NCBI RefSeq assembly: GCF_026239695.1
Contig: NZ_JAPIVS010000001.1
Coordinates: 310,001 to 374,000, forward strand
Direction of reading: 5' to 3'
DNA: 64,000 bases
Source of the DNA: Pedobacter sp. MC2016-15
Lineage (GTDB): Bacteria; Bacteroidota; Bacteroidia; Sphingobacteriales; Sphingobacteriaceae
Below the pieces are notes generated by a model that was not told the origin of the DNA, made no database searches, and worked only from the letters and a program-made list of their open reading frames with translations. Below, piece by piece: positions 39,577 to 62,274 of the stretch. The translations under genes were made by a program, and so were the position numbers. Within the stretch, counting starts at the first letter, position 1; the number at the start of each line of letters is the position of its first letter.

Positions 39577-39849
39577 TTAGCTAGACTTTTTCAAAACATA
39601 TCCCAGATCATCAAATTGAGGCACTTGGTGAACAGAAGTAGTTGCCGCTTTCAAAATGTAGTCTCTTAAATTATTAGATAGCGGCGGCTTTGGATGGGGT
39701 GCCGGAGCTACGATACCAGCAAAATATGCAGACAGTGCACATAGCTGTGAAGTCCCCAAACATTCAGGCTCTTGTGGATCCATCAGATCCCAACTTGCAG
39801 CAACATTGGCGGGAATCCCACCATTATATGAATACCAAGCTCTAGGCAT
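39577..39849 (-). CDS. WYxYNG-family small protein (copy 1)
   Basis: 90 aa from the ATG at 39849 (MPRAWYSYNGG); upstream in-frame codons lie inside the conserved leader. Family blocks: N-terminal WYSYNG, then ECLGTSQLCALSAYF with the two cysteines 7 positions apart, a helix PPLSNNLRDYILKAATT and a C-terminal strand GYVLKKSS. No signal peptide, no membrane helix. I do not recognise the family; seven relatives follow on the plus strand between 43.8 and 62.3 kb. The small size and strand-core-helix-strand plan suggest one compact domain. It is the only copy on the minus strand and has the shared 5' element. Confidence 0.75.
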   Translation of the reverse strand: MPRAWYSYNGGIPANVAASWDLMDPQEPECLGTSQLCALSAYFAGIVAPAPHPKPPLSNNLRDYILKAATTSVHQVPQFDDLGYVLKKSS

Positions 39850-39935
39850 AATGATCAATGCTTTTATAGATCAAAAAGCATATGAAAAACTTTAATAAAC
39901 GCCTACTCTTTTCAGGGTTTTCGGCTAGTCCCATA
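39850..39935 (-). ncRNA. Conserved 5' leader element, copy 1
   Basis: Read on the minus strand: GGG (39933-39931), then GCCGAAAACCC, GAGTAGGC, AAAGTTTTT, and the hairpin GCTTTTTGATCTATAAAAGC at 39879-39860, ending 10 nt before the ATG. The order matches six other copies in the window. Confidence 0.75.
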
Positions 39936-40189
39936 ATTATCAGGCAATTATAGCAGAAATGCGTAAACAGCAGCTGCTTAATACCAATACAATCTATTAA
40001 AAACATAATAAAGGCATCCAGACATAGGTCACATAAGCCATATTCAGTAGATCATAAATCCTATAGGAGATTACTCAAAATATCATACTCTTAATAAGAC
40101 AGCTTCATGTTTCCTCGTCAGTTGCTAAAAGCGCCGGCGAAAATACATTCATGATTGCATATATAGACCCAATTATTTTTAATCCTCAC

Positions 40190-41674
40190 ATGAATCTAAT
40201 CAAGAAAAACCTGCTGACATTAATGACAAGCCTTTTTGTTTCATTCCATGCGCAAGCTCAATCAACTCCCCCTAAGCCATATGGTGCAATTCCAACTGCC
40301 AGACAGCTCAAATGGCATGAAACCGAAATGTATTGTTTAATTCATTTTGGCCCAATCACATTTACAGGAGAGCAACGAGGCTTTGGTGATGCAGATCCCA
40401 ATGTATTTAATCCCTCTAAACTTGATGCCGGACAAATAGTTAAAGCAGCTAAAGCTGGTGGCTTCAGAGGCATCATCCTTGTTGCCAAACATCATGACGG
40501 ATTTCATATGTGGCCAACCAAGGTATCAAAATATAACATCAGTGCCAGTTCATGGAGAAATGGCAAGGGCGATGTGGTAAAAGAATTCCAAATGGCCTGT
40601 AAAAAGGAAGGTCTGAAGTTTGGGTTGTACAACTCTCCCTGGGATAGAAATAATCTGAATTATGGCTCAGCTGCTTATGTTGACGACTATAGAAATGAAT
40701 TGAAAGAGTTGTACTCAAACTATGGCCCGCTTTTCATGAGCTGGCATGATGGAGCAAATGGGGGTGACGGTTTTTACGGGGGCAAAAAAGAACAGAGAAA
40801 AGTGGATCCGGGAAGTTATTATGACTGGCTTAATACCTGGAAAATAACGAGAAAACTACAGCCGGATGCAGCGATATTCAGCGATGCAGGTTTGGATGTC
40901 CGCTGGGTAGGAAATGAGGAAGGCTTTGCACCTGAAACAAGCTGGTCAACTATAACACTTAAAAGTACAGATACAAGGCCCGCTATGCCCGGCTTCATTG
41001 ATACTAAGAATCTGGGAAGTGGCACAAGAAACGGCAAGAAATGGATTCCCTTTGAAGCAGATGTTCCCCTACGCCCAAACTGGTTTTATGATGCGGATGA
41101 TGATGATAATGTAAAATCAGTTGAAAAACTATTCGAAATCTATTGTACTTCGGTTGGTCGTGGTGGTGGATTGGATTTGGGGTTATCGCCAAACAAAGAA
41201 GGCTTGCTGCATCAAAACGATGTAGAGGTTCTATCCAAATTTGGAATTTTGCTTAAAGAAGTTTTTGCTAATAATCTTGCTAAAAAAGCAAAAATTTCCG
41301 TGTCAGATACTAGAGGTGCTGGTAAACAATTTGACATATCTAAGTTAACGGACACAGACCGATACAGTTATTGGGCGACCAAAAACAATATTCATAAAGC
41401 ATCTGTTCAACTTTCGTATTCTAAACCTATACAGTTTTCCATCATACAGTTACGTGAAAATATTAAGCTTGGGCAGCGTATTGACAATGTGAAAGTGCAG
41501 ATATTTAATAATAATCAGTGGGAAGAAATAGCAGAAGCCACAAGTATTGGGGCGAACAAAATTATACGTTTAAAATCCGCTCAAACTGCCGATAAAATCA
41601 GAATCCTGATCTCTGCACCGGTCAGTATCACACTAAGTGATGTTGGTATCTATCAGGAACCAATCAAAATATAA
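40190..41674 (+). CDS. Secreted GH29 alpha-L-fucosidase
   Basis: 494 aa from the ATG at 40190 (MNLIKKNLLTLMTSLFVSFHAQAQ, signal peptide). The GH29 barrel shows LKWHETEMYCLIHFGPITFTG, LVAKHHDGFHMWPTKVSKYNI and GPLFMSWHDGANG, whose Asp is at the nucleophile position. GRGGGLDLGLSPNKEGLL closes the barrel. The C-terminal 130 residues (about 365-494) form a discoidin-like beta domain (YWATKNNIHKASVQLSY; FSIIQLRENIKLGQRI). It removes alpha-linked fucose in the periplasm or outside. Two GT10 fucosyltransferase-like genes lie 6-8 kb away, so fucose is both added and removed in this region. Confidence 0.92.
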   Translation: MNLIKKNLLTLMTSLFVSFHAQAQSTPPKPYGAIPTARQLKWHETEMYCLIHFGPITFTGEQRGFGDADPNVFNPSKLDAGQIVKAAKAGGFRGIILVAKHHDGFHMWPTKVSKYNISASSWRNGKGDVVKEFQMACKKEGLKFGLYNSPWDRNNLNYGSAAYVDDYRNELKELYSNYGPLFMSWHDGANGGDGFYGGKKEQRKVDPGSYYDWLNTWKITRKLQPDAAIFSDAGLDVRWVGNEEGFAPETSWSTITLKSTDTRPAMPGFIDTKNLGSGTRNGKKWIPFEADVPLRPNWFYDADDDDNVKSVEKLFEIYCTSVGRGGGLDLGLSPNKEGLLHQNDVEVLSKFGILLKEVFANNLAKKAKISVSDTRGAGKQFDISKLTDTDRYSYWATKNNIHKASVQLSYSKPIQFSIIQLRENIKLGQRIDNVKVQIFNNNQWEEIAEATSIGANKIIRLKSAQTADKIRILISAPVSITLSDVGIYQEPIKI

Positions 41675-41734
41675 GACACAAATTATAATCTCTTCATTGG
41701 TCATCGACACTATAACCAAATATATAAACTAGTA

Positions 41735-43693: not shown

Positions 43694-43774
43694 TATTGAA
43701 AAATAGTTCATCTTGCTTTTTAGTGTCTTTTGTCTCCTGACATTTTTGAGGTTTTCTCTAATTTTAGCTAAAAA

Positions 43775-43849
43775 GGGGGAAGCTGAAAACCCTGCTCAGA
43801 GTAGGCGCATACCTAAATTTTAAAGTTTTTTATTAAAAAACAACATATT
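43775..43849 (+). ncRNA. Conserved 5' leader element, copy 2
   Basis: GGGGG at 43775, GCTGAAAACCC, AGAGTAGGC, AAAGTTTTTT. The usual hairpin is replaced by a different one with the same shape, GTTTTTTATTAAAAAAC (43825-43841), ending 8 nt before the ATG. Structure kept while sequence changes supports a functional RNA. Confidence 0.75.
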
Positions 43850-44107: not shown

Positions 44108-44110
44108 GAT

Positions 44111-44170: not shown

Positions 44171-46375
44171 TTATTCTACAACCAGCCAGGTATAGCCATT
44201 GGCAGGAATAGCTACTTCAACGTAGGTATCCCCGTTCTTATCAAGACGGTAAGATTTTGATTTGCCTTCCTTTTCTCTAATCGATGCTTTATCATGCAAA
44301 CCGGTGTAGTATAAAGGAAGTTTGATCTTCTTTGTGATTACTTCGTTCAACGGATTATATAACATCACCAGTGCCTTCTCCTTTCCCCTTGGGTCAACAT
44401 GTAAAATTCCATCCCAGTCCCTCCCGTCTGGCCTGCGCAAATGTATGATCTGTGAATTTAAAATCATCCGGTATGTTTTATACCAGGTTACTACACGGGA
44501 TACCATCCTTTTGGTATCGTCGGTGTCATAGATTCGTGTTCCCAGATAACAGGCCTGGATACCTGCACCAAAATATTGCATCATCAGCTGTTCATAAGCA
44601 TCAAGATGTTCGGATAATGGCTCCAAAGTGGCCGCCGCGCCTCCCCCATGATATTCTGTTAAAGGCACGAAACCCCATCCCATAGACGGCATCTTTTCCC
44701 AGGTCGCATCATAGATATTCTGACGGTTCAATATGATTTGTTGTGCTCTTGGCAAAGAAAAATTCACCTCACGGTAGCCGAGGGCACATTTACTCCCCCC
44801 ATCCAAAAAATACCAATCTGGCGTATTCAGGAATATTGCATTTTCTGCACACCAACGGTAAAAGTCTTTTTGAAGTTCAATTTGTTTCCATTGAGAATCA
44901 TCCAGACCTTTATGTCCGGGGTGTTTGGTTGAAGCACATACGTCACCAGGATACGCACCATCCTGATCGAATTCATCAAAACCAGTTCTTTTATAAAAAT
45001 CTTTTAATTTTCTAAAATATTCAAGGCCCCATTTGCTTCCAAGACATGGTGAATGAGCATAATATGCATGGACATTGGGCTTTCCTGTTTTGGGATCAAT
45101 AACGTCAGTTTCATCATCGATGCGCCTGCTCGCTAATAAAGAATATCCCCCTATTTGAATGCCTTTGCTATGAGCATAATCAGCCATTTTCTTACAAAAG
45201 CTAATATTTTTCTCCGAAAGGTATTCCATATTAAAGGCTGTGCCAAAACTAAATATCACCATTTCAAACCCGGCAGCAGCGCATTGATCTACTGCTTTTT
45301 TAAAGACTGTTTCATCAAAACTCTTGAGGAAAAGGTAGATGGGATTCTGGGTGGCCCAAGGGGCAACTGTTCTGTAAAAAATTCTTTGTGCCAGGCCATT
45401 CCTTTCCCGGTCATAACTGTCAAGTAGTAATTCATTCGTCCTGATCGACTTAAAGACCGCTCCGGGTATCAGTTCTATACCCGGGCCGACCGGCGGATGC
45501 ACCTCAAGCAGACACGGGGTATTCAGGAGATAATTCACCTGCGAAGTATAACTTGTATCAGCCTTCCAATTTGTTGTTTGATCTGACAAACGCGCATTCA
45601 TCGAATTATTGAATGCATAATTACTTTCGATATATAAACCATGGGGAATCTTAAGCTGAGTGGCAGTACCAGCAACAGAAGATTCCTCTTCATGTACGGC
45701 CAGAATCTCATTCACGACCTTATCAACTTTGATGATAGAAATACTTCTATTTTCAATACTGATCCATTTACAAACCAGTGGGATACCATCGTATAATTCG
45801 TAATTTACCTTAATGACAATGCCTTTAAGAGCAGCAGTCCCGGATTCAAAATTAAAGGTCACCATCTTGCCAGTGGGCTGCTGTTGGTTCGCAGCCCATC
45901 TGGCAGGTGATGGCTTCCAGTTTAGGTAAGGCATAACAGTTGTGATATCGTAGGATTTATATTGAAAATCACCTGCATATGACCTCAGCTGATTTATCCA
46001 TTCAATCTTTAAATAGCCTTTCTCAGGCTGGCCATAAAGACCGCCTATATTGTAATCTTTCCCATTAATAGTTATCCTTGCTTCTGCTTTAACAGCCCTG
46101 AGCAACTGTTGACCATTACTCAGATTGGTAAAATCAGTACAGGAAAGGTTGGGCCTTAAACGGAAAGTTCTTCTTAATAAGCCATTATCCAGTATAATAT
46201 CTTTATGATCCTCACTGACAAAAATTTCTGCACGGTCGGTAATTTTAGTGATCAGCCAATCTGCCTGTATTTTGTTTTTTTTACTGTCTTTCCATACCGG
46301 CAGATATGATTTCAACTCCTGACCTCTGCTTAGCATGGCTTGAAATAACAGCAACGCTGTTAAATATTTTCTCAT
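44171..46375 (-). CDS. Secreted glycoside hydrolase, clan GH-D-like (possible alpha-galactosidase)
   Basis: 734 aa with a signal peptide (LTALLLFQAMLSRGQ). The first 300 residues form a beta-sandwich (LDNGLLRRTFRLRPNLSCTDF; GIVIKVNYELYDGIPLVCKWISIEN). The central barrel includes FEMVIFSFGTAFNMEYL, HSKGIQIGGYSLLASRR, GFDEFDQDGAYPGDVC and FLNTPDWYFLDGGSKCALGYREV, and Asp residues in the DQDG and PDWYFLDGG strands could be catalytic. The C-terminal beta domain ends in YTWLVVE. This plan fits GH36/GH27-type enzymes, but family membership is not certain. It stands alone, convergent with the copy-2 small-protein gene. Confidence 0.65.
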   Translation of the reverse strand: MRKYLTALLLFQAMLSRGQELKSYLPVWKDSKKNKIQADWLITKITDRAEIFVSEDHKDIILDNGLLRRTFRLRPNLSCTDFTNLSNGQQLLRAVKAEARITINGKDYNIGGLYGQPEKGYLKIEWINQLRSYAGDFQYKSYDITTVMPYLNWKPSPARWAANQQQPTGKMVTFNFESGTAALKGIVIKVNYELYDGIPLVCKWISIENRSISIIKVDKVVNEILAVHEEESSVAGTATQLKIPHGLYIESNYAFNNSMNARLSDQTTNWKADTSYTSQVNYLLNTPCLLEVHPPVGPGIELIPGAVFKSIRTNELLLDSYDRERNGLAQRIFYRTVAPWATQNPIYLFLKSFDETVFKKAVDQCAAAGFEMVIFSFGTAFNMEYLSEKNISFCKKMADYAHSKGIQIGGYSLLASRRIDDETDVIDPKTGKPNVHAYYAHSPCLGSKWGLEYFRKLKDFYKRTGFDEFDQDGAYPGDVCASTKHPGHKGLDDSQWKQIELQKDFYRWCAENAIFLNTPDWYFLDGGSKCALGYREVNFSLPRAQQIILNRQNIYDATWEKMPSMGWGFVPLTEYHGGGAAATLEPLSEHLDAYEQLMMQYFGAGIQACYLGTRIYDTDDTKRMVSRVVTWYKTYRMILNSQIIHLRRPDGRDWDGILHVDPRGKEKALVMLYNPLNEVITKKIKLPLYYTGLHDKASIREKEGKSKSYRLDKNGDTYVEVAIPANGYTWLVVE

Positions 46376-46515: not shown

Positions 46516-47229
46516 CTATATCCTAAACCTTGTGGCCCAGAACGGAAATGGCCAGCCTTGTCTCAAAAAATCTAAAAAATAGGTTTCATCAGCTATAGGG
46601 TTACATCCGTTTTGCTTTCTAATAATGCTAAAAACACTTTGGTCATAACGGTTAGCCTGATAGTCGGGATGCTGCGTATTGACGATGATCTCATCTGTAA
46701 AAAGAAAAGGATTATCACACGCAGTTTCATACCATTCATTAACAAGCATCACCGAGTGAGCACATTTTCTTAAAAGTACTACTGTTGCCATCAGTTGATT
46801 CGAATTGATACTTTCAGCAGGTGTATCAAAATAATCAAAGATCTCCTTCTTTGTAAACCTGAACTCTTCAAGTGGTAATTCAAAATCTACAGTTCCAGTA
46901 GTGGACAGCCTTAACATTTCCAGATATTCCTCAAATCTTTTTCTTCCTGAATCATTCACCATACATCCGGCATCACAGTAGACCAATATATCATCCTCAT
47001 CAATACTATCCAGAGTTTGTTTGATAATATATGGTTTCCACAACCAGTAGCCGCCACCTTTGGGCATCTTTATTGTCTCTTCTACCTGTTCAATAAATTC
47101 ATGTCCTATATCATCCGGTGTAAAAATTCGAATGTTGTCGAAAAATTGTGAAGACAGGGCGGTCTGCGCTAAAAATTCCCGCTGTTTCCGGTATGCGTCA
47201 TCACCGTAGGTAATTATGTGTTTTTTCAT
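46516..47229 (-). CDS. GT-A-like glycosyltransferase of unassigned family
   Basis: 237 aa, no signal peptide. MKKHIITYGDDAYRKQREFLAQTA, then GGGYWLWKPYIIKQTLDSIDEDDILVYCDAGC and SNQLMATVVLLRKC. The WLWKPYII...VYCDAGC block with its metal-type Asp is shared with several capsule-type and galactosyltransferase-like GT-A proteins; the conserved YDQSVFSIIRKQNG fits the C-terminal acceptor region. The exact family is not claimed. It follows the GT10 gene by 22 bp in the same direction, so it is probably co-transcribed and acts on the same glycan. Confidence 0.7.
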   Translation of the reverse strand: MKKHIITYGDDAYRKQREFLAQTALSSQFFDNIRIFTPDDIGHEFIEQVEETIKMPKGGGYWLWKPYIIKQTLDSIDEDDILVYCDAGCMVNDSGRKRFEEYLEMLRLSTTGTVDFELPLEEFRFTKKEIFDYFDTPAESINSNQLMATVVLLRKCAHSVMLVNEWYETACDNPFLFTDEIIVNTQHPDYQANRYDQSVFSIIRKQNGCNPIADETYFLDFLRQGWPFPFWATRFRI

Positions 47230-47251: not shown

Positions 47252-48118
47252 TTACCTGAAGATAATCTCTTTTAGCTTTTTGTATAGATTGTAACGATCC
47301 ATATAGATCATCTTGTTGATAGTTGAAAACGGTGAAGGTTCGGCAACAATGCTTTTCAGCTCATCGATAATGCATGGACTATCCAGATCAATAGTTTTAT
47401 AATATCTTTGATCATAAATGTCATTGATATTCGGCGCTCCATGATAAATTGGTATGGTATTACATAATACACAGTCGACAAATTTTTCTGTGACATAATT
47501 CTTCTCTTCAGAATTCTCTATGGCAATAGAATACTCATAAGGCAATAAACCGGTAAATTTATAATCTATGAAGCCTTTATAACGCGGATCATCTAAATTT
47601 AAACGCCAGCCATAAATATCTATATCCAGATCTGATGCCAGAATTTTCTGCAGTAAAGCGGTACGCTTCTGATAAATGCCCCGGGGTTTATTCAGATAGG
47701 ATACAATTATAGACAGTTTCCTGATCTTTTTTGTGGATGCAGCATAATGGAAAAATGTTTTGTCTACCTTGTCGTGAAAAAACATAAAAGAAGGCGTTTC
47801 TATTACAGTTCCGCCAAGATCTATTTGATAGGTATGCTCAAACAGCTCGGCATCATGAATAAGCAAAAAATCACTAGTCCTCAGGAACGGGTTATCTACA
47901 TTTGCGTCACTCCATGAGGGTTCCTGTATAATGGTAATGATTTTTGCACAAGAGCTTATCAGCTCGTCCGTTCTGTTAAATACAACTGCATAGTCATAAT
48001 TTTCGCTGATTTTAAAGCAGAGCTGGTCGTCCCATACCGCATAGTTAGCTAAAAATCTTTTTGTAAGCTCTTCTGAGGAAGCATAATTAGAAAATAATCT
48101 AACATTCATACGCGTCAA
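47252..48118 (-). CDS. GT10-family (alpha-1,3/4-fucosyltransferase-like) glycosyltransferase, copy A
   Basis: 288 aa, cytoplasmic. The C-terminal nucleotide-binding region reads LLPYEYSIAIENSEEKNYVTEKFVDCVLCNTIPIYHGAPN, the diagnostic GT10 block (Y-x-IAIENS...NYVTEKF) that binds GDP-fucose. The N-terminal half has IITIIQEPSW and SIIVSYLNKPRGIYQKR, as in Helicobacter-type enzymes. It lacks the C-terminal heptad repeats of those enzymes. Fucose from GDP-fucose is the expected donor; no GDP-fucose synthesis genes are in the window. Strongly similar to the gene at 48868, and both are divergent from a GT2 gene. Confidence 0.88.
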   Translation of the reverse strand: MTRMNVRLFSNYASSEELTKRFLANYAVWDDQLCFKISENYDYAVVFNRTDELISSCAKIITIIQEPSWSDANVDNPFLRTSDFLLIHDAELFEHTYQIDLGGTVIETPSFMFFHDKVDKTFFHYAASTKKIRKLSIIVSYLNKPRGIYQKRTALLQKILASDLDIDIYGWRLNLDDPRYKGFIDYKFTGLLPYEYSIAIENSEEKNYVTEKFVDCVLCNTIPIYHGAPNINDIYDQRYYKTIDLDSPCIIDELKSIVAEPSPFSTINKMIYMDRYNLYKKLKEIIFR

Positions 48119-48232: not shown

Positions 48233-48871
48233 ATGAAAGCACCATACGTCTCCTGCATAATGCCAACAGCGAACAGAGAAAAATACATCCCTTTTGCAAC
48301 CAGATATTTTCTTGAACAAAACTATCCCTTAGCAGAGCTGATCATCATAGATGACGGAAAATCTTCTGTTGCCAGTCTGGTACCTGAGGATGAGCGCATC
48401 CGGTACTATTACACTGCGCCCTTGGGAACGATCGGGCTAAAAAGGAATTATGCTATTGAACTCGCTAAGGGTGATATCATTATGCATTGGGATGATGATG
48501 ACTGGCGTGCGCTGGACTGGATCAGCCGCTCTGTGGATTTTCTGATCGCTAACGATGCTGATGTTACGGGTATTAAACATGTACATTATTTTTCTCCTAT
48601 CAGAAACATATTCTGGCAGGGCGATGCACATAACCGCAATATGCAAAATACAAGAGTATGGCTAAATGGTGCCACCCTGGCCTACTGGAAATCATATTGG
48701 GAAAAACATCCATTTAAGGATTTGCAGAAGGGAGAGGATGAAGAATTTATACAACATGAAGGGGCAAAAGTATTTGCTCATGATTATATCAATGGATTTG
48801 TAGCAATTCTCCATCAGCACAATACTACAATCAAACCATTTGAATACAAAAAACACAAAAAGAATACTTAG
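48233..48871 (+). CDS. Small GT2 glycosyltransferase, HWDDDDW type (copy 1 of 4)
   Basis: 212 aa, a bare GT-A domain. SCIMPTANREKYIPFATRYFL, AELIIIDDGKSS, LGTIGLKRNYAIELAKGDIIMHWDDDDW (metal-binding Asp cluster), then WLNGATLAYWKSYWEKHPFKDLQKGEDEEF with the likely catalytic Glu/Asp, and FVAILHQHNTT. No membrane helix. Three close relatives lie at 50607, 56819 and 57478. It is divergent from the copy-A GT10 gene (114 bp), and its stop overlaps that of the copy-B GT10 gene by 4 bp. Confidence 0.88.
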   Translation: MKAPYVSCIMPTANREKYIPFATRYFLEQNYPLAELIIIDDGKSSVASLVPEDERIRYYYTAPLGTIGLKRNYAIELAKGDIIMHWDDDDWRALDWISRSVDFLIANDADVTGIKHVHYFSPIRNIFWQGDAHNRNMQNTRVWLNGATLAYWKSYWEKHPFKDLQKGEDEEFIQHEGAKVFAHDYINGFVAILHQHNTTIKPFEYKKHKKNT

Positions 48872-49734
48872 CTTAGATGATTACCGGTTTCTATTATAAT
48901 TTCTTTGAGTTTTGTATACAAGTTATAAGTCTTTGTATAAATATCTTTATTCACCAAAGCTCCCGGTGACGGTTTTGAGATGATAGCTTTGATATCATCA
49001 ATGATACTGGGACTATCGAGATCAATTGTCCTGAAATAGTTTTGATCATAAACATCGCTGATATTAGGTGCACCATTGTAAATGGGCACAGTGTTGCACA
49101 ACACGCAGTCAAAAAACTTTTCGGATATATAGTTTTTCTCATGGGAATTTTCAATTGCTATGGAATACTCATAGGGTAAAAGTCCAACATGTTGCTCACC
49201 TTTATACCTGTCATCATTGATATACCAGTTTCTGCCATAGATATCAATATCCAAATCCGACTTTAAAATTTGGTCGAGAACATTAATCCGCTTTAGGTAG
49301 TTACCCCATTTAAAGTGATGGGAAGAGACAATCATAGATATTTTTTTCTGTTTTTTGATATGCTCGACCCCATCATAAAATTTATGATCTACCCGATCAT
49401 GATAGAACATAAATGCCGGGGATTCAATTACATTTTTACCCAACGTTACCTTCCACACTTTTTCAAACAAGGTGCGGTCATGTACAATGAGATAATCGCT
49501 GTTAGTTAGGGAATATCCCTGTAGAAAAGCCTCACTAAAGGTTGGCTCCTGTATAACGGTAATCAATTTAGCATCAGATTTGGTATGTCCATCCGCCCGG
49601 TTAAAGGCAACAGCATAATCATAATCAACATCGGTTGTGAACTGTAGATCATCATCATAGACATCATAGTTGGCCAAGAATCTGTCCAGCAGTTGTTCTG
49701 ATGCAGCGTAGTCTGAGAAGAATTTGACTTTCAT
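48868..49734 (-). CDS. GT10-family fucosyltransferase-like glycosyltransferase, copy B
   Basis: 288 aa. The GT10 block LLPYEYSIAIENSHEKNYISEKFFDCVLCNTVPIYNGAPN is nearly identical to copy A. The rest aligns from end to end (VKFFSDYAASEQLLDRFLANYDVYDDDLQF versus VRLFSNYASSEELTKRFLANYAVWDDQLCF). The middle part that should contact the acceptor (SHHFKWGNYLKRINV, NWYINDDRYKGEQHVG) differs most, so acceptor specificity may have shifted. Convergent with one GT2 gene and divergent from another; the pair looks like a duplicated GT10/GT2 unit. Confidence 0.88.
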   Translation of the reverse strand: MKVKFFSDYAASEQLLDRFLANYDVYDDDLQFTTDVDYDYAVAFNRADGHTKSDAKLITVIQEPTFSEAFLQGYSLTNSDYLIVHDRTLFEKVWKVTLGKNVIESPAFMFYHDRVDHKFYDGVEHIKKQKKISMIVSSHHFKWGNYLKRINVLDQILKSDLDIDIYGRNWYINDDRYKGEQHVGLLPYEYSIAIENSHEKNYISEKFFDCVLCNTVPIYNGAPNISDVYDQNYFRTIDLDSPSIIDDIKAIISKPSPGALVNKDIYTKTYNLYTKLKEIIIETGNHLS

Positions 49735-54101: not shown

Positions 54102-54827
54102 TTAAGGAGCAATTAACTTCCAGCCCTGCCCCATCCTGCTATTCCACTTTTTCTCCAGATAAAAAAATTCATTTGATGTAAGTTCAAGTTTACTGAGCAT
54201 AAAATTTACATCTGAAGTAGCGCTTCCCAGATGCTCTACAATAGAGCTTGTGACTAGAGCATGGCCCAAATGAAGGCTTGCCATCAAGTTGGCATAATCA
54301 TTATCTGCGCACCAGAATGTAAAGTTCTCATCTAAACTTCCAGTTAGCCTAAGCACATCACGCTTTAGAAATAAACACCATCCTGCTATCTCGTATCTAT
54401 TTCTATAACCTGGATAAATTCCTGTATTGAAATGAAAGCCAAGTCCCTCGTGATGAGATGGTGATAGAGGTGATGCACTGGAAAGATCATAATATGTATC
54501 AAATGCTATAAGAATTTCTGTTGCCCAATTTGTATGGAAAATCAGATCATTGTTGCAAAGGCATAAATATTTTGAAGAAGTGAGCTCAATTCCGATGTTC
54601 ATGAATTTGTTATATCCAAAATCCATATCCGGATATAAGGTTACAGAATTTTCATATTGATGGCCATCCAGCGTTCGTTCTGATTCAATAACTATTACAT
54701 TAAATTTGATCTTGTCTCTGTCTTCAGAATCCATTAATGAATGTATGCAGTTTTCTGTCATAAGTTTTAATGCTGCATTGTATGCATAACTTAATATGAT
54801 AATGTCGACTTCTGTTATACCTTTCAT
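54102..54827 (-). CDS. GT2-like glycosyltransferase, NNDLIF type (copy 1 of 2)
   Basis: 241 aa. EVDIIILSYAYNAALKLMTENCIHSLM, IVIESERTLDGHQYENSVTLYPDMDFGYNKFMNIGIELTSSKYLCLCNNDLIF (the NND in place of DxD), AGWCLFLKRDVLRLTGSLDENFTFWCADNDYANLM and ALVTSSIVEHLGSAT. The DENFTFWCADNDY block is the usual GT2 catalytic region. It is paralogous to the gene at 55857. It is 23 bp after the 54851 gene in one transcript. No membrane segment. Donor and acceptor unknown. Confidence 0.82.
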   Translation of the reverse strand: MKGITEVDIIILSYAYNAALKLMTENCIHSLMDSEDRDKIKFNVIVIESERTLDGHQYENSVTLYPDMDFGYNKFMNIGIELTSSKYLCLCNNDLIFHTNWATEILIAFDTYYDLSSASPLSPSHHEGLGFHFNTGIYPGYRNRYEIAGWCLFLKRDVLRLTGSLDENFTFWCADNDYANLMASLHLGHALVTSSIVEHLGSATSDVNFMLSKLELTSNEFFYLEKKWNSRMGQGWKLIAP

Positions 54828-54850: not shown

Positions 54851-55414
54851 TTAATACAATCCCAGGGTAACCTCCACTTCATTATTTTCACTTATTTCAA
54901 GATGGTCAAGTGCATGTATCATGTATATGCTTGTGAGCCGACCTGTCCCTTCCACTGCGACATAGGGTCCAACTTTATCTACAGCAAGTAGTGTTATACC
55001 TTCCAATTTTACATCCTGATTTTTTAACGCACGGTAAATTCCGGATACCCGCGCATCGAGATAAGGTAGTTTGTTGAGATTTCTTGCAGCGTCAGAGATG
55101 AGGTAGGATCCATCGGTATTTCTTTTCCAACCTGGTAGCTGTAAGGTGTAAACCAGATCCAGATCTGACTTTTTTAGTTCTAAAAGAGCGCGATACCAAT
55201 TGATATATAATGAGATGGAATCAACCAAACCTTGCTTGAGCTCTAAAACATTGCTGATTCCTTCCTTTTCTAAATAATGGCTGCCGGAAAGTAACATTGT
55301 TAGGGTTTCCTGTCTGGTTGATTCAAATGCCGGATTAAAAAATTCGGAGTACACTTCCCCTACTGCCCATCTTCTCAGTACTTCATGGCGGTCTATTTTT
55401 TCTAATAATTTCAT
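54851..55414 (-). CDS. Hypothetical protein with a ParB-like VEGTGRL motif
   Basis: 187 aa, no signal peptide or membrane helix. The N-terminus is helical (LLEKIDRHEVLRRWAVGEVYSEFF). The C-terminal half contains YLDARVSGIYRALKNQ, ITLLAVDKVGPYVAVEGTGRLTSIYMIHALDHLEI, where VEGTGRLTSIY looks like the ParB/sulfiredoxin nucleotide-binding turn (DG-x-R/H-RL). That is a resemblance only. It sits directly upstream of a GT2 gene in the same transcript, so it may be a kinase-like or regulatory partner for glycan synthesis, but no function can be assigned. Confidence 0.65.
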   Translation of the reverse strand: MKLLEKIDRHEVLRRWAVGEVYSEFFNPAFESTRQETLTMLLSGSHYLEKEGISNVLELKQGLVDSISLYINWYRALLELKKSDLDLVYTLQLPGWKRNTDGSYLISDAARNLNKLPYLDARVSGIYRALKNQDVKLEGITLLAVDKVGPYVAVEGTGRLTSIYMIHALDHLEISENNEVEVTLGLY

Positions 55415-55585: not shown

Positions 55586-55840
55586 ATGAAAAGATCTTGG
55601 TATGCATTTATGGGTGGAGATCCGTTTAATGTTGAAAACTATCATAGACTCACGGCAAAACCGGGTTATTTATGTGGGGCAAACTTATGCGCGATTTATG
55701 CTACGGGAGTGGAAATTCATCCATTGGATCCTCTATCTAATAATCTAAGAGACTACATTAAAAAAGGTTTAGAGACGGAGTTATTGCAACCTTTTGATCC
55801 ATTTTTTACAAAAAAGTATGTATATCTAAAAGATGTATAA
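55586..55840 (+). CDS. WYxYNG-family small protein (copy 3, no leader element)
   Basis: 84 aa from the ATG at 55586 (MKRSWYAFMGGD). Blocks: SWYAFMGGDPFNVENYHRLTAKPG, YLCGANLCAIYATG (cysteines five apart), HPLDPLSNNLRDYIKKGLE and the final KYVYLKDV. It closely matches copy 1 in the PLSNNLRDYI helix. Unlike the other seven it lacks the GCCGAAAACCC...AGTAGGC leader. Instead it carries a GAGACA..TGTCC motif like those upstream of the plus-strand GT2 genes. It lies between two minus-strand glycan genes. Confidence 0.72.
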   Translation: MKRSWYAFMGGDPFNVENYHRLTAKPGYLCGANLCAIYATGVEIHPLDPLSNNLRDYIKKGLETELLQPFDPFFTKKYVYLKDV

Positions 55841-55856: not shown

Positions 55857-56576
55857 TTAACTAATAATCTCCCAACCTGTGCCCAAACGATATTTCCATT
55901 TTTTTTCCCAGTATTTTAACTCTCCATAAGTTAAATCTTGCTGTTTGTAATCTGTTTGAGCATGCAGGGTGATGCTACCAAGGTGGTCAACTCTTGAAGA
56001 TGTTACTAACCCGTGCCTCAGCTTTAAGATAAAAAGTGTATTTCCATAATCATTATCTGCACACCAAAAACGGTAATTTTCATCCAGTCTGCCCATTTGC
56101 TTCAATAGGTCGCGCTTGAAAAATAGACACCAGCCTGCAATATGTGCTCTAACTCTGTATCCGAAATGTATAGAACCGTCCAACTTAAAACCCTCCTGCG
56201 GGTGGAAAATACCACAAGCAGGTGATGCACTGTCCAATTTAAATTTCTCGCAAGCATTGACAATATTGGTAGCCCATCCCTCATAAAATATCAAGTCATT
56301 ATTACAAATACAGACATAAGGCGACGAAGAGATGTCTATGCCTTTATTCATATACAGATTATATCCAAATTCAACATCAGGATAAATCGTTGTCGTATAT
56401 TCATATTGATATGAACCCATTGCTCTCTCGGATTCAACTACGATAATATTAAATTTGACCTTAGTCGGATCTTCTGAGCAGAGTAGTGATTTAATACAAT
56501 TGTCAGTAACCTCTTTGAGTTCAATACTTTGAGCATAACTCAAAATGATAATGTCTATTTCTATTTTTTTACTCAT
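55857..56576 (-). CDS. GT2-like glycosyltransferase, NNDLIF type (copy 2 of 2)
   Basis: 239 aa from the ATG at 56576 (MSKKIEIDIIILSYAQ); an upstream ATG at 56606 is possible. VTDNCIKSLL, IIVVESERAMGSYQYEYTTTIYPDVEFGYNLYMNKGIDISSSPYVCICNNDLIF, AGWCLFFKRDLLKQMGRLDENYRFWCADNDYGNTL and LVTSSRVDHLGSITL match the 54102 protein throughout. Cytoplasmic GT-A fold. It is convergent with the copy-3 small-protein gene (16 bp) and divergent from the GT2 gene at 56819. Confidence 0.82.
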   Translation of the reverse strand: MSKKIEIDIIILSYAQSIELKEVTDNCIKSLLCSEDPTKVKFNIIVVESERAMGSYQYEYTTTIYPDVEFGYNLYMNKGIDISSSPYVCICNNDLIFYEGWATNIVNACEKFKLDSASPACGIFHPQEGFKLDGSIHFGYRVRAHIAGWCLFFKRDLLKQMGRLDENYRFWCADNDYGNTLFILKLRHGLVTSSRVDHLGSITLHAQTDYKQQDLTYGELKYWEKKWKYRLGTGWEIIS

Positions 56577-56818
56577 AATTGATAGGGTTTTTCTAAATAT
56601 TTCCATTCATTTAAAATTGAATTTACAATAAAGTACGATCAGTGAAACTTCTTTTGTAATTCCGGATCATTTGTCCCAAATGTTGCAAATATTCCAAAAG
56701 ACAAATTCTTGTTTGTAGCGTTAAATATTTATGTCGATCACTTATGAGACAAGTGTCCCTATGAAAAACCTAGCCTATCATTTAATTTTATAACATACAA
56801 TTATAAAAACAAAATTCT

Positions 56819-57475
56819 ATGGATCAACCACTCGTCTCCTGCATCATGCCGACTGCAAATCGGCAGAGATATCTTCCGATGGCCATTCAATACTTTTTAG
56901 AACAGGACTACGTTAGATCTGAGCTAATCATTTTGGATGACGGAAAAGAATCAGCATTTGATATTATTCCAGACAATCTAAGGATCAAATATTTTTATAT
57001 TGAGCCAATGGGTACTATTGGTATCAAAAGAAACGCAGCCTGTGACAAAGCTAATGGTGAAATCATTTTGCACTGGGACGATGACGACTGGTATGCACCA
57101 GACTGGATAAGCAGACAAGTGGAAGCGCAATTAAAATCTGGAGCCGATATAACAGGCTTAAATAGAGTGATTTTTTTCTCTCCATCTTTGAATAAACGGT
57201 ATATGTATGAAGATACCGATGAAGATAAACCCTGGTTGTGTGGAGCTACAATGGCATATAAAAAGTCCTTTTGGAAGGAACACAGCTTTGTAGACCTACA
57301 AGTGGGTGAAGATTACGATTTTGTATGGAATTCTGGCGGGAAGATTTTTGCTTTAGATTACCTTCATGGATTTGTTGCAATTCTTCATGCAAACAATACC
57401 AGTATTAAACCTATTGAAAATCCTAAGCATAAAAAAAATCCAGTGGGTTGGAAAGAATCAAAACCAGCATCCTGA
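56819..57475 (+). CDS. Small GT2 glycosyltransferase, HWDDDDW type (copy 3 of 4)
   Basis: 218 aa. SCIMPTANRQRYLPMAIQYFLEQDY, SELIILDDGKES, MGTIGIKRNAACDKANGEIILHWDDDDWYAPDWISRQV, WLCGATMAYKKSFWKEHSFVDLQVGEDYDF and FVAILHANNTS are all in place. It shares the short SPSLNKRYMYEDTDEDKP acceptor loop with copy 4 rather than the LNRN loop of copies 1 and 2. The next gene starts 3 bp after its stop, so the two are one operon of paralogues. Confidence 0.88.
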   Translation: MDQPLVSCIMPTANRQRYLPMAIQYFLEQDYVRSELIILDDGKESAFDIIPDNLRIKYFYIEPMGTIGIKRNAACDKANGEIILHWDDDDWYAPDWISRQVEAQLKSGADITGLNRVIFFSPSLNKRYMYEDTDEDKPWLCGATMAYKKSFWKEHSFVDLQVGEDYDFVWNSGGKIFALDYLHGFVAILHANNTSIKPIENPKHKKNPVGWKESKPAS

Positions 57476-57477
57476 TT

Positions 57478-58164
57478 ATGAGTGCTCATCACGTGTCTTG
57501 TATTATGCCGACAGCTAATAGAGAATTATTTGTACCAATGGCTGTAGATTACTTTCTTAATCAAAGTTATCGCAACGCGGAATTGATTATTGTTGATGAT
57601 GGCAAATATTCTGTCAGATCAGTAATACCTGAACATTATAGAGTAAAATATCATTATACAGAACCTCTTGGAAGCATCGGCCTTAAAAGGAATTATGCAT
57701 GTCAGCTGGCACAAGGTAAAATAATCATGCATTGGGATGATGATGACTGGTATGGCTATGAATGGATTGCAAAACAGGTCGCCGCATTAGAAAGCTCCGG
57801 CGCAGACATATGTGGTTTAAATCAAATTCCTTTTTATTCGCCTTTGATGAAAAAATATTGGAATTATGATGGCAGAAGCCAGGAAAGGCCCTGGCTATCA
57901 GGTGCAACTATGGCTTATCATAAATCTTTTTGGAAAGATCATCCATTTAAAGATGTGCAAATAGGTGAAGATTATGATTATATCTGGAATAATAACGCGA
58001 CTATATTTGCACATGATTATACCGAGGGATTTTGTGCTATACTCCATTCGGGTAATACTACACTCAAACCTTTTGAAAATAAAAAACATAAGAGACGTGC
58101 GATACAATATATGGATATTGAATTTAAGGGAGATTCCGAAAACCCAGAAAAGAGTAGGATCTAA
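57478..58164 (+). CDS. Small GT2 glycosyltransferase, HWDDDDW type (copy 4 of 4)
   Basis: 228 aa from the ATG at 57478 (MSAHHVSCIMPTANRELF). Blocks: AELIIVDDGKYS, LGSIGLKRNYACQLAQGKIIMHWDDDDWYGYEW, WLSGATMAYHKSFWKDHPFKDVQIGEDYDY and FCAILHSGNTT. The last 11 codons (GDSENPEKSRI) are read from the conserved leader element that precedes the next gene, so its C-terminus has been extended compared with its paralogues, which end near NTTxKPxENxxHKKN. Confidence 0.87.
   Translation: MSAHHVSCIMPTANRELFVPMAVDYFLNQSYRNAELIIVDDGKYSVRSVIPEHYRVKYHYTEPLGSIGLKRNYACQLAQGKIIMHWDDDDWYGYEWIAKQVAALESSGADICGLNQIPFYSPLMKKYWNYDGRSQERPWLSGATMAYHKSFWKDHPFKDVQIGEDYDYIWNNNATIFAHDYTEGFCAILHSGNTTLKPFENKKHKRRAIQYMDIEFKGDSENPEKSRI
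58128..58160 (+). ncRNA. Conserved leader element, copy 4 (truncated, inside a gene end)
   Basis: GGG at 58128, TCCGAAAACCC, GAGTAGGA. The inner arm pair is TCC/GGA where other copies have GCC/GGC, a compensating change. The AT-rich hairpin is absent and the next ATG (58180) is only 20 nt away. Confidence 0.6.
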
Positions 58165-58179
58165 TGCTAAAATTGGAAT

Positions 58180-58506
58180 ATGCCTTGGTATAAATTAATT
58201 AATAATGAGCTGGATATATGTGATTCATCCAGTTATAAAATCTTAAATAAAGCACCTGATTGTGTCGATGGCCCTTACTTGCATGCTATATTTGCAGACG
58301 AAATTCCTGAAGATCCGGAACGAAGGCCTGATATTGAAGGAACACCGGGACTACTCTTTTATATTATTCGAGCCTTGGCAAGTGGTAAAGGCCAACCCTC
58401 TTCCACCTTTCCACCAGTACCGCTTGAGGTACGAATGTCTCCTAATCCTGCAATGGATAGTACCAATTTTCAATATGTTAGGGGAAATGCCGAAAACCCA
58501 GAATAG
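58180..58506 (+). CDS. WYxYNG-family small protein (copy 4, most divergent)
   Basis: 108 aa. MPWYKLINNELDICD keeps the W-Y start. The core is DCVDGPYLHAIFADE, where the second cysteine is replaced by His. Then come GTPGLLFYIIRALASGKGQ and NFQYVRGN. It is longer than the rest because of an insertion (EDPERRPDIEG) and a C-terminal tail AENPE read from the leader element of the next gene. It lies 15 bp after a GT2 gene and may be co-transcribed with it, unlike the other family members. Confidence 0.65.
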   Translation: MPWYKLINNELDICDSSSYKILNKAPDCVDGPYLHAIFADEIPEDPERRPDIEGTPGLLFYIIRALASGKGQPSSTFPPVPLEVRMSPNPAMDSTNFQYVRGNAENPE

Positions 58507-58565
58507 AGTAGGCTGAAATTTAAAGTTTTCTGATCGCTTTTTGATCTATAAAAGCATCCTTTATT
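58481..58565 (+). ncRNA. Conserved 5' leader element, copy 5
   Basis: GGGG at 58481, GCCGAAAACCC, AGAGTAGGC, AAAGTTTTC, hairpin GCTTTTTGATCTATAAAAGC at 58536-58555, ending 10 nt before the ATG. Its first 26 bp are the coding end of the preceding gene. Confidence 0.8.
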
Positions 58566-58856: not shown

Positions 58857-58866
58857 TAAATGTAAT

Positions 58867-58922: not shown

Positions 58923-58929
58923 TGTATTT

Positions 58930-60729
58930 TTACTTAACCACCTCTATAAGTTCAATTTCGAAAATTAAATTACTATTTGGTGGAAAACTTCCATGCGCTG
59001 TATGACTTCCATATCCCAGGAAGGAAGGTATATATATAATCCATTTTGATCCTACTTTCATTAATGCCAATGCTTCCTTCCACCCATCAATCACATCAGC
59101 TAATTTTAATTCCACAGGTTTTGCATTTTTCAACGTAGTTTCGAAAACTTTACCGTTCACTTGCATTCCAGTGTAATGAACCTTAATTTTATTATTAAAT
59201 TTGGGTCTAATACCATTTCCCTCACGAATAATCCTATACTGTAAACCTGAAGGCAGTGAAATGACACCTTCTCTTTCTTTGTTTTCATCTAGAAATCTTT
59301 CATTCTCCTCTTGTGTGGCATTGTTTACTTGTTTAGTGGAAGATTTGTTTAAAATATGTTGATTAAAGTTATTATTCTCACTGACTTCGGTGAAGATTAA
59401 CTTATCGACAGTTCGCAATTCTTTCCTGAGAATCAATCCATAGGAACTTAAAACCATATTTATGTCCTCAAAACTTGCATGTAGATCTAAATTAATTCTT
59501 ATCCATAAATTAGAGGAAATCCTACTATCGACGGAGGCCGCTGGTGTTTCATCAAAAACATAAGGATGATCTTCCTGATTATTCAATTTTGATATAAGCC
59601 CTGAAACACTTATCCCTATTCCAATTTTTTCTCCCTTAACTTTTTTTGCGATTCCTGATGAAATTTCATTTAATACCCACACTATTTCTGTTCTTTTTTC
59701 CCAACGTACATGTAATCCTAAGATTTCATCCAACTGTTTATTGACTTTCCTATAGATTTCTGAATCACTTTGACCGCTATCCTTATTTACGGATTCAAAA
59801 CAATGTCCAGCAGTTAATATCCATTCTTCAGGATACCTATTGTCTTTGTAATTCCACCTATACTTAGAGCGGTCCAAAACTTCCCACACGGTTTGATTTG
59901 AATCAATAGTCAATGATGGTGTAATGAGATCTCCCATTTTATATGTGGACATCCAATTTACTACATACATAGTATGAATTGGTTCATTGATCATATAAGT
60001 TCTAAATGTTCGATCATATGCATTCCTTATAATACCTCTGCCTCCGCTAAAGCCCATGGTATTAATGCCGGACTTATAACCAGATAGAGCTGTGTATATT
60101 ATTGGGTGCCTCTCATCACCGCCAATATCAAAAAGCTTTTTGGAATAATCGTGCTTAAAAAAATCATTTTTAATCTTCCAATTAACATTCTCGCCGGCTA
60201 GTATCCGTGTAATATTTTGTTCATCGACATAATCGGCTGTTGTGATACCAACAACCTTTCTGTTATAAATCCAAATTTCATGCGGCACTCCAATGTGAGG
60301 GAAGTAAGTTTGAAATATTTTGTCTTCAACAACTGAAGGGAGAGTATTTGATTTTGTATATTTATTATTTTTCCAAAATGCAGAAACTATACTCTCTGAC
60401 TCATATGTAACGGGAAGGATTTTCAGTCTATTTCCAATTTTTTTTTGCAAATCTTCTAGACGGGGTAGAGCAGCAATACATCCACTACAATTTGTTGACC
60501 AAAAATCTATCAGCAACAATTGATTATCAAAATCCGAAATTTTGCCATAACTATATCTCGCATTAAATATTTTTGGGATGATAAAGTCTGGAACTGAATC
60601 TCCCACTGTCAGAGCGACAGTTTTAACGTTCCCATTTAGTCGCTCATCATCTGGGAAATGCTTTTGACAAAGTACTTGTAAGGGCAATGTTAGTAATATA
60701 AAGAAAATGCTTTTAAATAATATTTTCAT
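58930..60729 (-). CDS. Secreted thioredoxin (TlpA-like) / FKBP prolyl isomerase fusion
   Basis: 599 aa. A signal peptide (LFKSIFFILLTLPLQVLCQ) possibly ends in a lipidated Cys. Residues about 35-170 are a TlpA-like thioredoxin domain: IDFWSTNCSGCIAALPRLEDL with active site C-S-G-C and GVPHEIWIYNRKVVGI. Residues about 195-450 are an uncharacterised stretch with LTAGHCFESVNKDSG. Residues about 495-599 are a full FKBP: YRIIREGNGIRPKFNNKIKVHYTGMQVNGKVFETT...DVIDGWKEALALMKVGSKW. Such a protein would reduce or isomerise disulfides and prolines in the periplasm. It is on the same strand as the SusCD genes to its right, with small-protein cassettes in between on the other strand. Confidence 0.85.
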   Translation of the reverse strand: MKILFKSIFFILLTLPLQVLCQKHFPDDERLNGNVKTVALTVGDSVPDFIIPKIFNARYSYGKISDFDNQLLLIDFWSTNCSGCIAALPRLEDLQKKIGNRLKILPVTYESESIVSAFWKNNKYTKSNTLPSVVEDKIFQTYFPHIGVPHEIWIYNRKVVGITTADYVDEQNITRILAGENVNWKIKNDFFKHDYSKKLFDIGGDERHPIIYTALSGYKSGINTMGFSGGRGIIRNAYDRTFRTYMINEPIHTMYVVNWMSTYKMGDLITPSLTIDSNQTVWEVLDRSKYRWNYKDNRYPEEWILTAGHCFESVNKDSGQSDSEIYRKVNKQLDEILGLHVRWEKRTEIVWVLNEISSGIAKKVKGEKIGIGISVSGLISKLNNQEDHPYVFDETPAASVDSRISSNLWIRINLDLHASFEDINMVLSSYGLILRKELRTVDKLIFTEVSENNNFNQHILNKSSTKQVNNATQEENERFLDENKEREGVISLPSGLQYRIIREGNGIRPKFNNKIKVHYTGMQVNGKVFETTLKNAKPVELKLADVIDGWKEALALMKVGSKWIIYIPSFLGYGSHTAHGSFPPNSNLIFEIELIEVVK

Positions 60730-60899
60730 AAGTCTTCTGATATGTGATTATTTAACTTCATTGAATGTATAGGCAAATCATAAACTATCCCAAATCACTC
60801 GTGATTTTATGTATCCTTTGTCCAAAGACTTGCCATAGATAATTAGTAAATTAGGTTATAATAAATTTAGAAACTGAAGTCAACAATTATATATCTAAA

Positions 60900-60979
60900 G
60901 GGGGATGCCGAAAACCCTTCAAAGAGTAAGCATAATTAAAGTTTTTGATAGCTTTTTGATATATAAAAGCATCTATATT
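60900..60979 (+). ncRNA. Conserved 5' leader element, copy 6
   Basis: GGGGG at 60900, ATGCCGAAAACCC, GAGTAAGCAT, AAAGTTTTTG, hairpin GCTTTTTGATATATAAAAGC at 60951-60970, ending 9 nt before the ATG. Here the second arm pair is ATGC/GCAT. Confidence 0.8.
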
Positions 60980-61261: not shown

Positions 61262-61385
61262 TAACAGTGTCAACTAAACTCATTAATTTATTCTTGTTCC
61301 ATATTATGTGCCGTGGCATTACGAAAATCGAATAATGGTATTAGATAGTAATTTATCCGTAAGAGGGTTGGTTGGTGAGAATGAA

Positions 61386-61468
61386 GGGGGAAGCCGAATA
61401 TCCTGTAATAGAGTAGGCAAAATTTAAAGTTTTTAATTGCTTTTTGATTCACAAAAGCATAAAATATT
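61386..61468 (+). ncRNA. Conserved 5' leader element, copy 7
   Basis: GGGGG at 61386, GCCGAATATCC (the CCC arm is partly changed), AGAGTAGGC, AAAGTTTTTA, hairpin with GCTTTT/AAAAGC arms at 61439-61458, ending 10 nt before the ATG. Confidence 0.78.
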
Positions 61469-61744
61469 ATGCCGAGATGTTGGTATGTTTATAATGGTGG
61501 GACCCCTGTAACAGCAGCTGGGTCCTGGAACCTCCTTGGTTGCGACGGCGCAGCAGTTATCGGATGTGAAGGTCCTGCGACTTTATGTGTTATTTCTGTG
61601 TATGTTCCTGTATTGCCAGCTCCTGCAACTCCTTTTGCACCATTATCACCAAATATTAGAAATTATATTAACTCTGCACTTGTTACGTCTTCCAATTCAA
61701 TTCCACAAATAGGGATACCTTATCTATATAAGAAAGCAGACTAA
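61469..61744 (+). CDS. WYxYNG-family small protein (copy 7)
   Basis: 91 aa. MPRCWYVYNGGTPVTAAGSWNLLGCDGAAVIGCEGPATLCVISVYVPVLPAP, then TPFAPLSPNIRNYINSALVTSSNSIPQIGIPYLYKKAD. It has two extra cysteines (PRCW and LLGCDG) on top of the core C-x6-C pair, so it could form two disulfides or a metal site. Otherwise it is close to copies 6 and 8. Its leader element is the most changed in the CCC arm. Confidence 0.8.
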   Translation: MPRCWYVYNGGTPVTAAGSWNLLGCDGAAVIGCEGPATLCVISVYVPVLPAPATPFAPLSPNIRNYINSALVTSSNSIPQIGIPYLYKKAD

Positions 61745-61919
61745 ATGCGTAATGGCAAAGAAAATATTTAAAGCAAATTGAGTTTTTTTCAGCATGTCTA
61801 AGTTTTATTATTTGGGACAGAAAGCACCTAAAAAACCAAAGAATTACACATAAATTAGTGCATGGTTAATAGTTAAATATGAAACTCTGTATTTCTAAAT
61901 TTAATTTGTAATCTAAATA

Positions 61920-62001
61920 GGGAGATGCCGAAAACCCTGCAACAGAGTAGGCGTAATTAAAGTTTTTTGATTGCTTTTTGATTTATAAAAGCGTCCATTT
62001 T
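61920..62001 (+). ncRNA. Conserved 5' leader element, copy 8
   Basis: GGG at 61920, ATGCCGAAAACCC, AGAGTAGGCGT, AAAGTTTTTTG, hairpin GCTTTTTGATTTATAAAAGC at 61973-61992, ending 9 nt before the ATG. Confidence 0.8.
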
Positions 62002-62274
62002 ATGCCTAGAGCTTGGTATGTATATAATGGTCAAACACCTGTAACGGCAGCTGGATCTTGGGATTACCTACCTTCCCAAACTATTGAATGTGTTGGTCCT
62101 ACTGTATTGTGTGCAATTTATGCTTATTTCCCATTTGCACCAGCACCACAGCCCAATCCACTATCACCCCTAAGTCCTAATATTAGGAGTTATATTAATT
62201 TAGCACAGGCTACATCAGCCAATGCAATACCACAAACTGGTGGTAAACCATACCTATATAAAAAATCACAATAA
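62002..62274 (+). CDS. WYxYNG-family small protein (copy 8)
   Basis: 90 aa from the ATG at 62002. MPRAWYVYNGQTPVTAAGSWDYLPSQTIECVGPTVLCAIYAYFPFAPAPQPNPLSPLSPNIRSYINLAQATSANAIPQTGGKPYLYKKSQ is best described by its parts: WYVYNG strand, C-x6-C core, a Pro-rich turn (APAPQP), the PLSPNIRSYI helix and the KPYLYKK strand. No export signal. It is the last copy before the SusD gene; a perfect terminator follows at once. Confidence 0.8.
   Translation: MPRAWYVYNGQTPVTAAGSWDYLPSQTIECVGPTVLCAIYAYFPFAPAPQPNPLSPLSPNIRSYINLAQATSANAIPQTGGKPYLYKKSQ

Follow-up and report, generated by a model that had tools for sequence, protein, structure and literature searches.

The 64,000-nucleotide window analysed here (bases 310001-374000 of contig 1 of Pedobacter sp. 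MC2016-15) carries eight small open reading frames (ORFs) of 84-108 aa scattered among glycosyltransferase (GT) genes, all of which were present as the first-pass annotation had listed them and could be aligned over their full length. When a profile built from the eight sequences was searched against the organism's own genome (5.14 Mb), exactly ten places were retrieved, all in this region and at E 1e-18 or better, so the shared pattern is not a chance one; the ninth and tenth copies lie downstream of the window (C1:377832 and C1:379580, 4-6 kb past its end). The proteins begin with M-x-R-WY, and for the ORFs 39577, 55553, 60905 and 61978, whose listed start codons are too far upstream, the true start is likely the ATG directly before (P/A/K)R-WY.

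The eight belong to one family but are not all alike. Four types can be told apart, each of which turns up again at set positions in other genomes: type A (MPWY[QK]xINN, as a rule one per cluster, with the Cys pair lost), type B (CLCG, C-x-C-x4-C), type C, which builds tandem arrays (ten copies in G163), and type D, with an N-terminal extension. Type A is the most conserved and constant member and follows a GT2-GT2 pair in nearly all clusters. Upstream of the window genes, seven DUF805b leader RNA elements (Rfam RF02914), overlooked in the first-pass annotation, were found by an Rfam scan, six above the gathering score of 35.6 and one at 35.0. The small genes, their leaders and a second hairpin described below are located as follows.

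39577-39849, minus strand: small protein of type C (C-x6-C), by profile and alignment
39900-39934, minus strand: DUF805b leader of the 39577 gene, 38.8 bits; second hairpin at about 39860-39879 (minus strand)
43773-43807, plus strand: DUF805b leader, 39.8 bits
43850-44107, plus strand: small protein of type D (N-terminal extension)
55586-55840, plus strand: type-B-like small protein without DUF805b, at the type B position of other clusters
58126-58160, plus strand: DUF805b leader, 40.4 bits, overlapping the 3' end of a GT2 gene
58180-58506, plus strand: small protein of type A (MPWYK, no Cys pair), directly after the GT2-GT2 pair
58479-58514, plus strand: DUF805b leader, 36.4 bits
58566-58856, plus strand: small protein of type C; second hairpin at about 58536-58555
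60898-60932, plus strand: DUF805b leader, 46.1 bits
60980-61261, plus strand: small protein of type C; second hairpin at about 60951-60970
61384-61419, plus strand: DUF805b leader, 35.0 bits, just under the gathering score
61469-61744, plus strand: small protein of type C; second hairpin at about 61439-61458
61918-61953, plus strand: DUF805b leader, 42.0 bits
62002-62274, plus strand: small protein of type C; second hairpin at about 61973-61992

The shared Cys core holds for most copies, with C-x6-C lost in 58180-58506 (MPWYK type) and the first Cys shifted in 55586; the C-x6-C pair is found in most copies of types B, C and D and in all secreted relatives examined. The absence of an export signal was borne out by hydropathy (highest 15-residue mean within the first 30 residues 1.08, median 0.31), the N terminus not being hydrophobic. 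The ratios of non-synonymous to synonymous substitution rates (dN/dS) of the array copies were 0.19-0.36, without signs of diversification, and the array copies are therefore translated and under purifying selection. The family is unnamed, as had been supposed: nothing was found in Pfam, NCBIfam, PHROGs, PADLOC or PDB sequences, and no known domain of unrelated function turned up. PHROGs and CrgA matches of the small proteins at E 0.04-0.23 were dismissed as chance. The AlphaFold2 model of 62002-62271 (mean predicted local distance difference test score (pLDDT) 76.9, predicted template modelling score 0.66) consists of strands and one helix and had no structural match in PDB or viral structures, so no function is assigned to the small proteins by fold. 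The family is narrow, since no copy beyond its own genome was found among 295 sampled Bacteroidia-level genomes.

Relatives were sought in 151 genomes of the taxonomic family, in a genus set (n=145) and in a wider family sample (n=301), and genus-level counts were taken at E<=1e-8 for the small family and at about 300 bits or more for the HWDDDDW subfamily of GT2. The small family was present in 21/145 genus genomes and the GT2 subfamily in 20/145, all 20 lying inside the 21; the odd genome (G253) has a single weak small-family hit. The Fisher-type figure for this co-occurrence is about 1e-23, which overstates it because the genomes are related, and is not a probability. In the wider sample the strict subfamily was found in 5/301 genomes, one of which (G302) belongs to a third genus; its small genes were reached via the GT2 pair alone, the small family there not having been known previously. 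The row in G302 reads Crp, MauE, GT10, GT2b, 237-aa protein, 187-aa protein, small D, GT2, GT2, small A and small C, and cluster-type SusC, SusD and TlpA were not detected beside these small genes and GTs. The proposed linkage to GT10 and HWDDDDW GT2 genes was thus supported, with all 20 GT2-subfamily genomes of the 145 carrying the small family, family hits tightly and specifically linked to GTs and a third genus predicted correctly.

For the comparison of gene order, 16 clusters from two genera were laid out. The conserved locus of ~35 kb holds soluble GT2 and GT10 genes, the 187-aa protein, the small-protein array, a TlpA thioredoxin, SusC/SusD, Crp and MauE, and FecR/FecI also belong to the common set; Crp, MauE, SusC, SusD, TlpA and the 187-aa protein occur together in 14/16 clusters, and GT genes number from 3 to 15 per cluster. 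The genes small B, GT2b, GT2, GT2 and small A of G163 all point the same way, separated by only 12-33 nt except where two of them overlap by 4 nt, and the tandem array of type C copies comes after them; further members there are an S8-type protease, an NHL propeller, FecR, an extracytoplasmic function (ECF)-type sigma fragment and an alpha-L-rhamnosidase. Of the neighbourhood first described for the small genes, the linked GT2, GT10 and GT4 genes stood, the glycosidases (GH29, GH97) proved not to be conserved across the clusters read, and TlpA-FKBP, SusC/SusD, Crp and MauE had been missed. The neighbouring genes in the window are given below.

46516-47229, minus strand: 237-aa protein, glycosyltransferase-like by reading (YCDAGC motif), no Pfam or NCBIfam match, in 8/16 clusters
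47252-48118, minus strand: GT10 (PF00852)
48233-48871, plus strand: GT2 (PF00535), HWDDDDW subfamily
48868-49734, minus strand: GT10-like, second copy
49883-50596, plus strand: GT2 (PF00535), GT2b subfamily
50607-51248, plus strand: GT2, HWDDDDW subfamily
51249-52451, plus strand: GT4 (PF13692/PF00534)
54102-54827, minus strand: GT2c subfamily, PF00535 above cut-off in a relative
54851-55414, minus strand: 187-aa protein (u187), no family, in nearly every cluster
55857-56606, minus strand: GT2c subfamily, second copy
56819-57475, plus strand: GT2, HWDDDDW, first of the conserved pair
57448-58164, plus strand: GT2, HWDDDDW, second of the pair, overlapping the first; start probably 57484
58930-60729, minus strand: secreted fusion of a TlpA-like thioredoxin with an FKBP prolyl isomerase
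62330-63724, minus strand: SusD-like lipoprotein (PF14322/PF07980)
63739-64000, minus strand: C-terminal end of a SusC/RagA TonB-dependent channel running past the window (whole gene L035:1736-5371)

The GT2 of the window matched PF00535 at 66 bits, with HWDDDD and GED invariant, and the GT10 matched PF00852 at 34.5 bits against a cut-off of 23.9. The best PDB matches of the GT2 profile were heparosan and chondroitin synthases and GalT1 (5hea), with GmaR far below, GalT1 and GmaR being distantly related protein glycosyltransferases; no SunS entry was among its PDB matches up to E 10, SunS not having been compared directly. Judged by its sequence, the GT2 leaves the choice between a protein and a polysaccharide acceptor undecided. 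The 187-aa protein, which belongs to the core of almost all clusters, had no family match, and its model was poor (pLDDT 39.9, from two sequences); a ParB-like resemblance ('VEGNGRL') was set aside as an impression only. Beside the glycosidases, at 44171-46375, lies a 734-aa secreted protein without Pfam match, a close relative of which occurs in the Pararcticibacter cluster (L036:2122-4320). A second GT4 gene, read in two frames and probably a pseudogene or frameshift, lies about 7-9 kb past the window end (L035 9360-10554).

The search of 151 genomes also recovered nine copies in one 27-kb cluster of Pararcticibacter amylolyticus (G076) and, in fourteen other genomes, mostly single copies with weaker scores. 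Nearly all frames in those fourteen carry the same mature domain, W[FY]xYxGxG...NY...C-x6-C-[AS]-[IV], behind an N-terminal signal or membrane segment, and the window proteins start exactly where this mature domain starts. By hhalign, the window-type family aligned with the mature secreted relatives at 98.3% probability over 82 columns, the secreted relatives with DUF6520 hits (signals trimmed) at 97.2%, and the window-type family with DUF6520 directly at 73.7%. Two secreted relatives matched PF20130 (DUF6520) at 16-17 bits, under the cut-off of 25.4; the window copies had no match to PF20130 at E<=1, and PF20130 retrieved nothing in their own genome. Because the profile comparison via intermediates is strong and the PF20130 scores are below cut-off, the small family is, on sequence grounds, placed not as a PF20130 member but as an amplified branch, without signal, of a superfamily of secreted C-x6-C peptides of ~75 residues that takes in or borders on DUF6520.

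DUF6520 peptides likewise have a ~75-residue mature domain with a C-x6/7-C core, adjoin MauE, SusD and TlpA and frequently have a DUF805b leader (a neighbourhood measured here, not a Pfam criterion), the small gene lying mostly between MauE and SusD; the window proteins differ in being without signal peptide or PF20130 match, multi-copy and set among GTs. SusD or TlpA adjoins the small gene in 18/18 secreted loci (SusD in nearly all, TlpA in several). These TlpA-SusC-SusD loci with FecI/FecR signalling in Sphingobacteriaceae have the same gene neighbours, but unlike the window locus they hold one secreted peptide and no GT battery. In L064 (G093:C23:40722) a MauE membrane domain and a peptide of DUF6520 type are fused in a single ORF. 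Two DUF6266 (PF19781) genes (37045-37707 and 38404-39033) and an HTH_17-like gene (37967-38311) lie in the window, and DUF6266 genes also occur near secreted relatives (L039, L042, L043).

The leaders are concentrated in this locus, to which 10/12 of the DUF805b matches in the genome (E<=0.1) belong. In the survey of the 106 small genes, the DUF805b core was found before 84, its start lying 44-46 nt from the ATG in type A and mostly 70-78 nt in types C and D, and it was never found before type B genes. Upstream of type B (12.4 kb in G163, 7.4 kb in G271, and other clusters) a common motif, TTTGACCCTATT ... TAATTTTA, was noticed, which is possibly a cluster-specific promoter. The window elements have the same hairpin and 3' AGAGUAGGC as the Rfam DUF805b RNA and sit before a gene. 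Across 56 non-redundant leaders, the base triplet preceding GAAAA is complementary to the one following AGUA, in the variants GCC/GGC, GCU/AGC, ACC/GGU and UCC/GGA; all three pairs form in 52/56 leaders, a number reached by 0/10,000 shuffles, and the annotated hairpin together with this covarying pairing therefore makes an H-type pseudoknot. A second, AU-rich hairpin (GCUUUU-UGAUNNAY-AAAAGC) stands 8-12 nt before the ATG in most type C and D genes, with an outer pair of G-C, U-A, C-G, U-G or A-U in 48/50 (shuffles 0/5,000) and no match in Rfam. Both shuffle tests ignore sequence kinship. Relative to the Rfam entry, the gene partner is defined here, the covarying GCC-GGC pseudoknot is documented and a second hairpin follows.

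In the arrays the DUF805b element often begins soon after the preceding stop codon, and the canonical Bacteroidota -7 box (TAnnTTTG) was found in 0/83 of the 70-nt stretches before the leaders; these two features suggest that the arrays are transcribed as polycistronic mRNA with one leader per cistron. Among the 30 best-scoring DUF805b loci of the family (L082, L091-L119), which are not a random sample and whose downstream genes were classified by reading, the downstream gene was of Sec or lipoprotein type in 14, carried a double-glycine-type leader in 10, belonged to the window type in 1 and was of another kind in 5. In most DUF805b loci outside the window family the distance from element start to start codon is very constant at about 52-59 nt. 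The element stands on at least 10/17 DUF6520 genes and on 6/18 secreted relatives.

The reading that we favour, tentatively and with slightly less than even confidence, is that the products of the locus are a family of small proteins, glycosylated and disulfide-bonded, which are the putative acceptors of the GTs encoded with them. The small proteins, having lost the Sec signal, would stay in the cytoplasm and be acceptors of the co-encoded transferases, and in the loci read no GT stood beside the secreted relatives, which keep the signal. The transferases would build the glycan directly on the small protein, because no flippase, polymerase or lipid-linked route was seen in the loci read. The protein would be exported after glycosylation, and its C-x6-C pair would be oxidised by MauE and TlpA, which imply oxidation outside the cytoplasm, so an export step would have to exist. 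As SusCD sits with FecR and an ECF sigma factor, the SusCD-FecR-FecI system would bind, import or sense the product at the outer membrane and feed back on expression, and the leaders would set the translation of each cistron.

In streptococcal serine-rich adhesin loci (GalT1), several soluble GTs act sequentially on a cytosolic protein without a flippase or polymerase. The locus studied here also has several soluble GTs, with neither a flippase nor a polymerase seen in the loci read, and its GT2 profile matches GalT1, whereas the putative acceptors are of ~90 aa and not long Ser-rich adhesins.

Several points weigh against the acceptor reading. Its weakest link is the exporter, since gene-by-gene reading of clusters revealed none, and a signal-less protein would, as judged from the genes, have no visible route by which to meet TlpA, SusCD or MauE. 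Polysaccharide synthases (heparosan, chondroitin) are closer to the GT2 profile than protein glycosyltransferases are. The member found most constantly, type A, is the one that lacks the Cys pair. Clusters differ in the number and kind of their GTs, and the window glycosidases (GH29, GH97, MGH1-like) are not constant across the clusters read. Pedobacter cryoconitis and P. hartonius have solo copies around which up to 10 kb was read and no GT found, so a copy can do without a GT next to it; these solo genes, each with a DUF805b leader, are at L122, L124, L125 and L127.

The polysaccharide-like GT2 profile, the solo genes, the secreted relatives beside TlpA and SusCD without any GT and the glycosidases in or near several clusters would all be accommodated if two separate systems were merely co-regulated, the GTs making an ordinary surface or exopolysaccharide glycan and the small proteins forming an unglycosylated DUF6520/MauE/TlpA/SusCD module under joint surface-signalling control (FecI/FecR, Crp). 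We regard this as unlikely, though it is the strongest of the competing explanations, because small B and A lie tightly packed against the GT2b-GT2-GT2 genes, the co-occurrence is 20/20, G302 keeps small genes and GTs where the cluster-type SusC, SusD and TlpA were not detected, and the loci read showed no flippase or polymerase.

The small proteins, type A above all, could instead be non-substrate partners, namely scaffolds, specificity subunits or regulators of GT complexes, which would suit a type A that is single-copy, most conserved, free of the Cys pair and placed after the GT2 pair in nearly every cluster. Such a role would leave unexplained why type C copies form tandem arrays, up to ten in number, why the family derives from secreted peptides and why its leader RNA is of exported-peptide type, and we consider this role rather improbable.

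A role in antagonism, with the arrays as secreted, glycocin-like toxins or bacteriocins and the 187-aa protein as immunity factor, is suggested by the parts list. In glycocin clusters the precursor, glycosyltransferase, thiol-disulfide oxidoreductases and peptidase-ABC exporter are encoded together (PMC6405829, PMC12457901), and the clusters for sublancin, pallidocin and glycocin F, like the present one, combine a small Cys-pair precursor with a glycosyltransferase and thiol-disulfide or DsbB-like redox proteins (PMC6405829, PMC12457901). The paralogue arrays and the presence of DUF805b also before double-glycine-leader peptides point the same way. The window system differs in having usually one C-x6-C pair and not five Cys, many different GTs and multi-copy precursors, and a SunS relationship was not detected. 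No double-glycine-type leader or cleavage site was found in the 106 aligned small proteins, and among the genes listed for the window locus, G163 and G271 none encodes a peptidase-containing ABC exporter; as both were looked for and absent, the system is not a glycocin, although by analogy it may work like one. With PADLOC empty and the array dN/dS free of diversification signs, antagonism appears quite improbable.

Spread of leader-plus-gene units as mobile cassette cargo by recombination, with a function not tied to GTs, would fit the conserved leaders before dispersed solo copies and is very improbable, given the locus order kept in 16 clusters, the purifying selection and gene lists in which, as far as read, neither a transposase nor an integrase was noticed; the 'cassette cargo' and 'effector' proposals of the first-pass annotation are without support. 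A phage origin was disfavoured by synteny and by the absence of phage-family matches.

The acceptor reading can be extended to a new class of Bacteroidota ribosomal glycopeptides, in which leaderless multi-copy C-x6-C proteins would receive multi-sugar glycans from a dedicated set of soluble cytoplasmic GTs, be exported along a so far undescribed route, oxidised by MauE/TlpA and recognised by dedicated SusCD/FecIR, with a DUF805b pseudoknot on each cistron marking an exported-peptide regulon. This fuller scheme is possible and is held with somewhat less confidence than the acceptor reading itself.

The link of the GTs to the small family is strong, and both the small family and its RNA leaders can now be set beside relatives and in a context. 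Two orphan families, the DUF6520-type peptides and the DUF805b RNA, gain a common testable context, namely a short pseudoknot leader that precedes small peptides destined for export and is associated with SusCD and with the redox proteins MauE/TlpA. For GT2/GT10 clusters without flippase and polymerase, a concrete acceptor hypothesis is provided. If the GTs do act on the small proteins, this would be a Bacteroidota ribosomal glycopeptide system with several precursors and transferases, distinct from the pathways of glycocins and of general O-glycosylation; the small proteins and their GT battery, recurring in about twenty related genomes, look like an undescribed, putative way of making sugar-coated small proteins.

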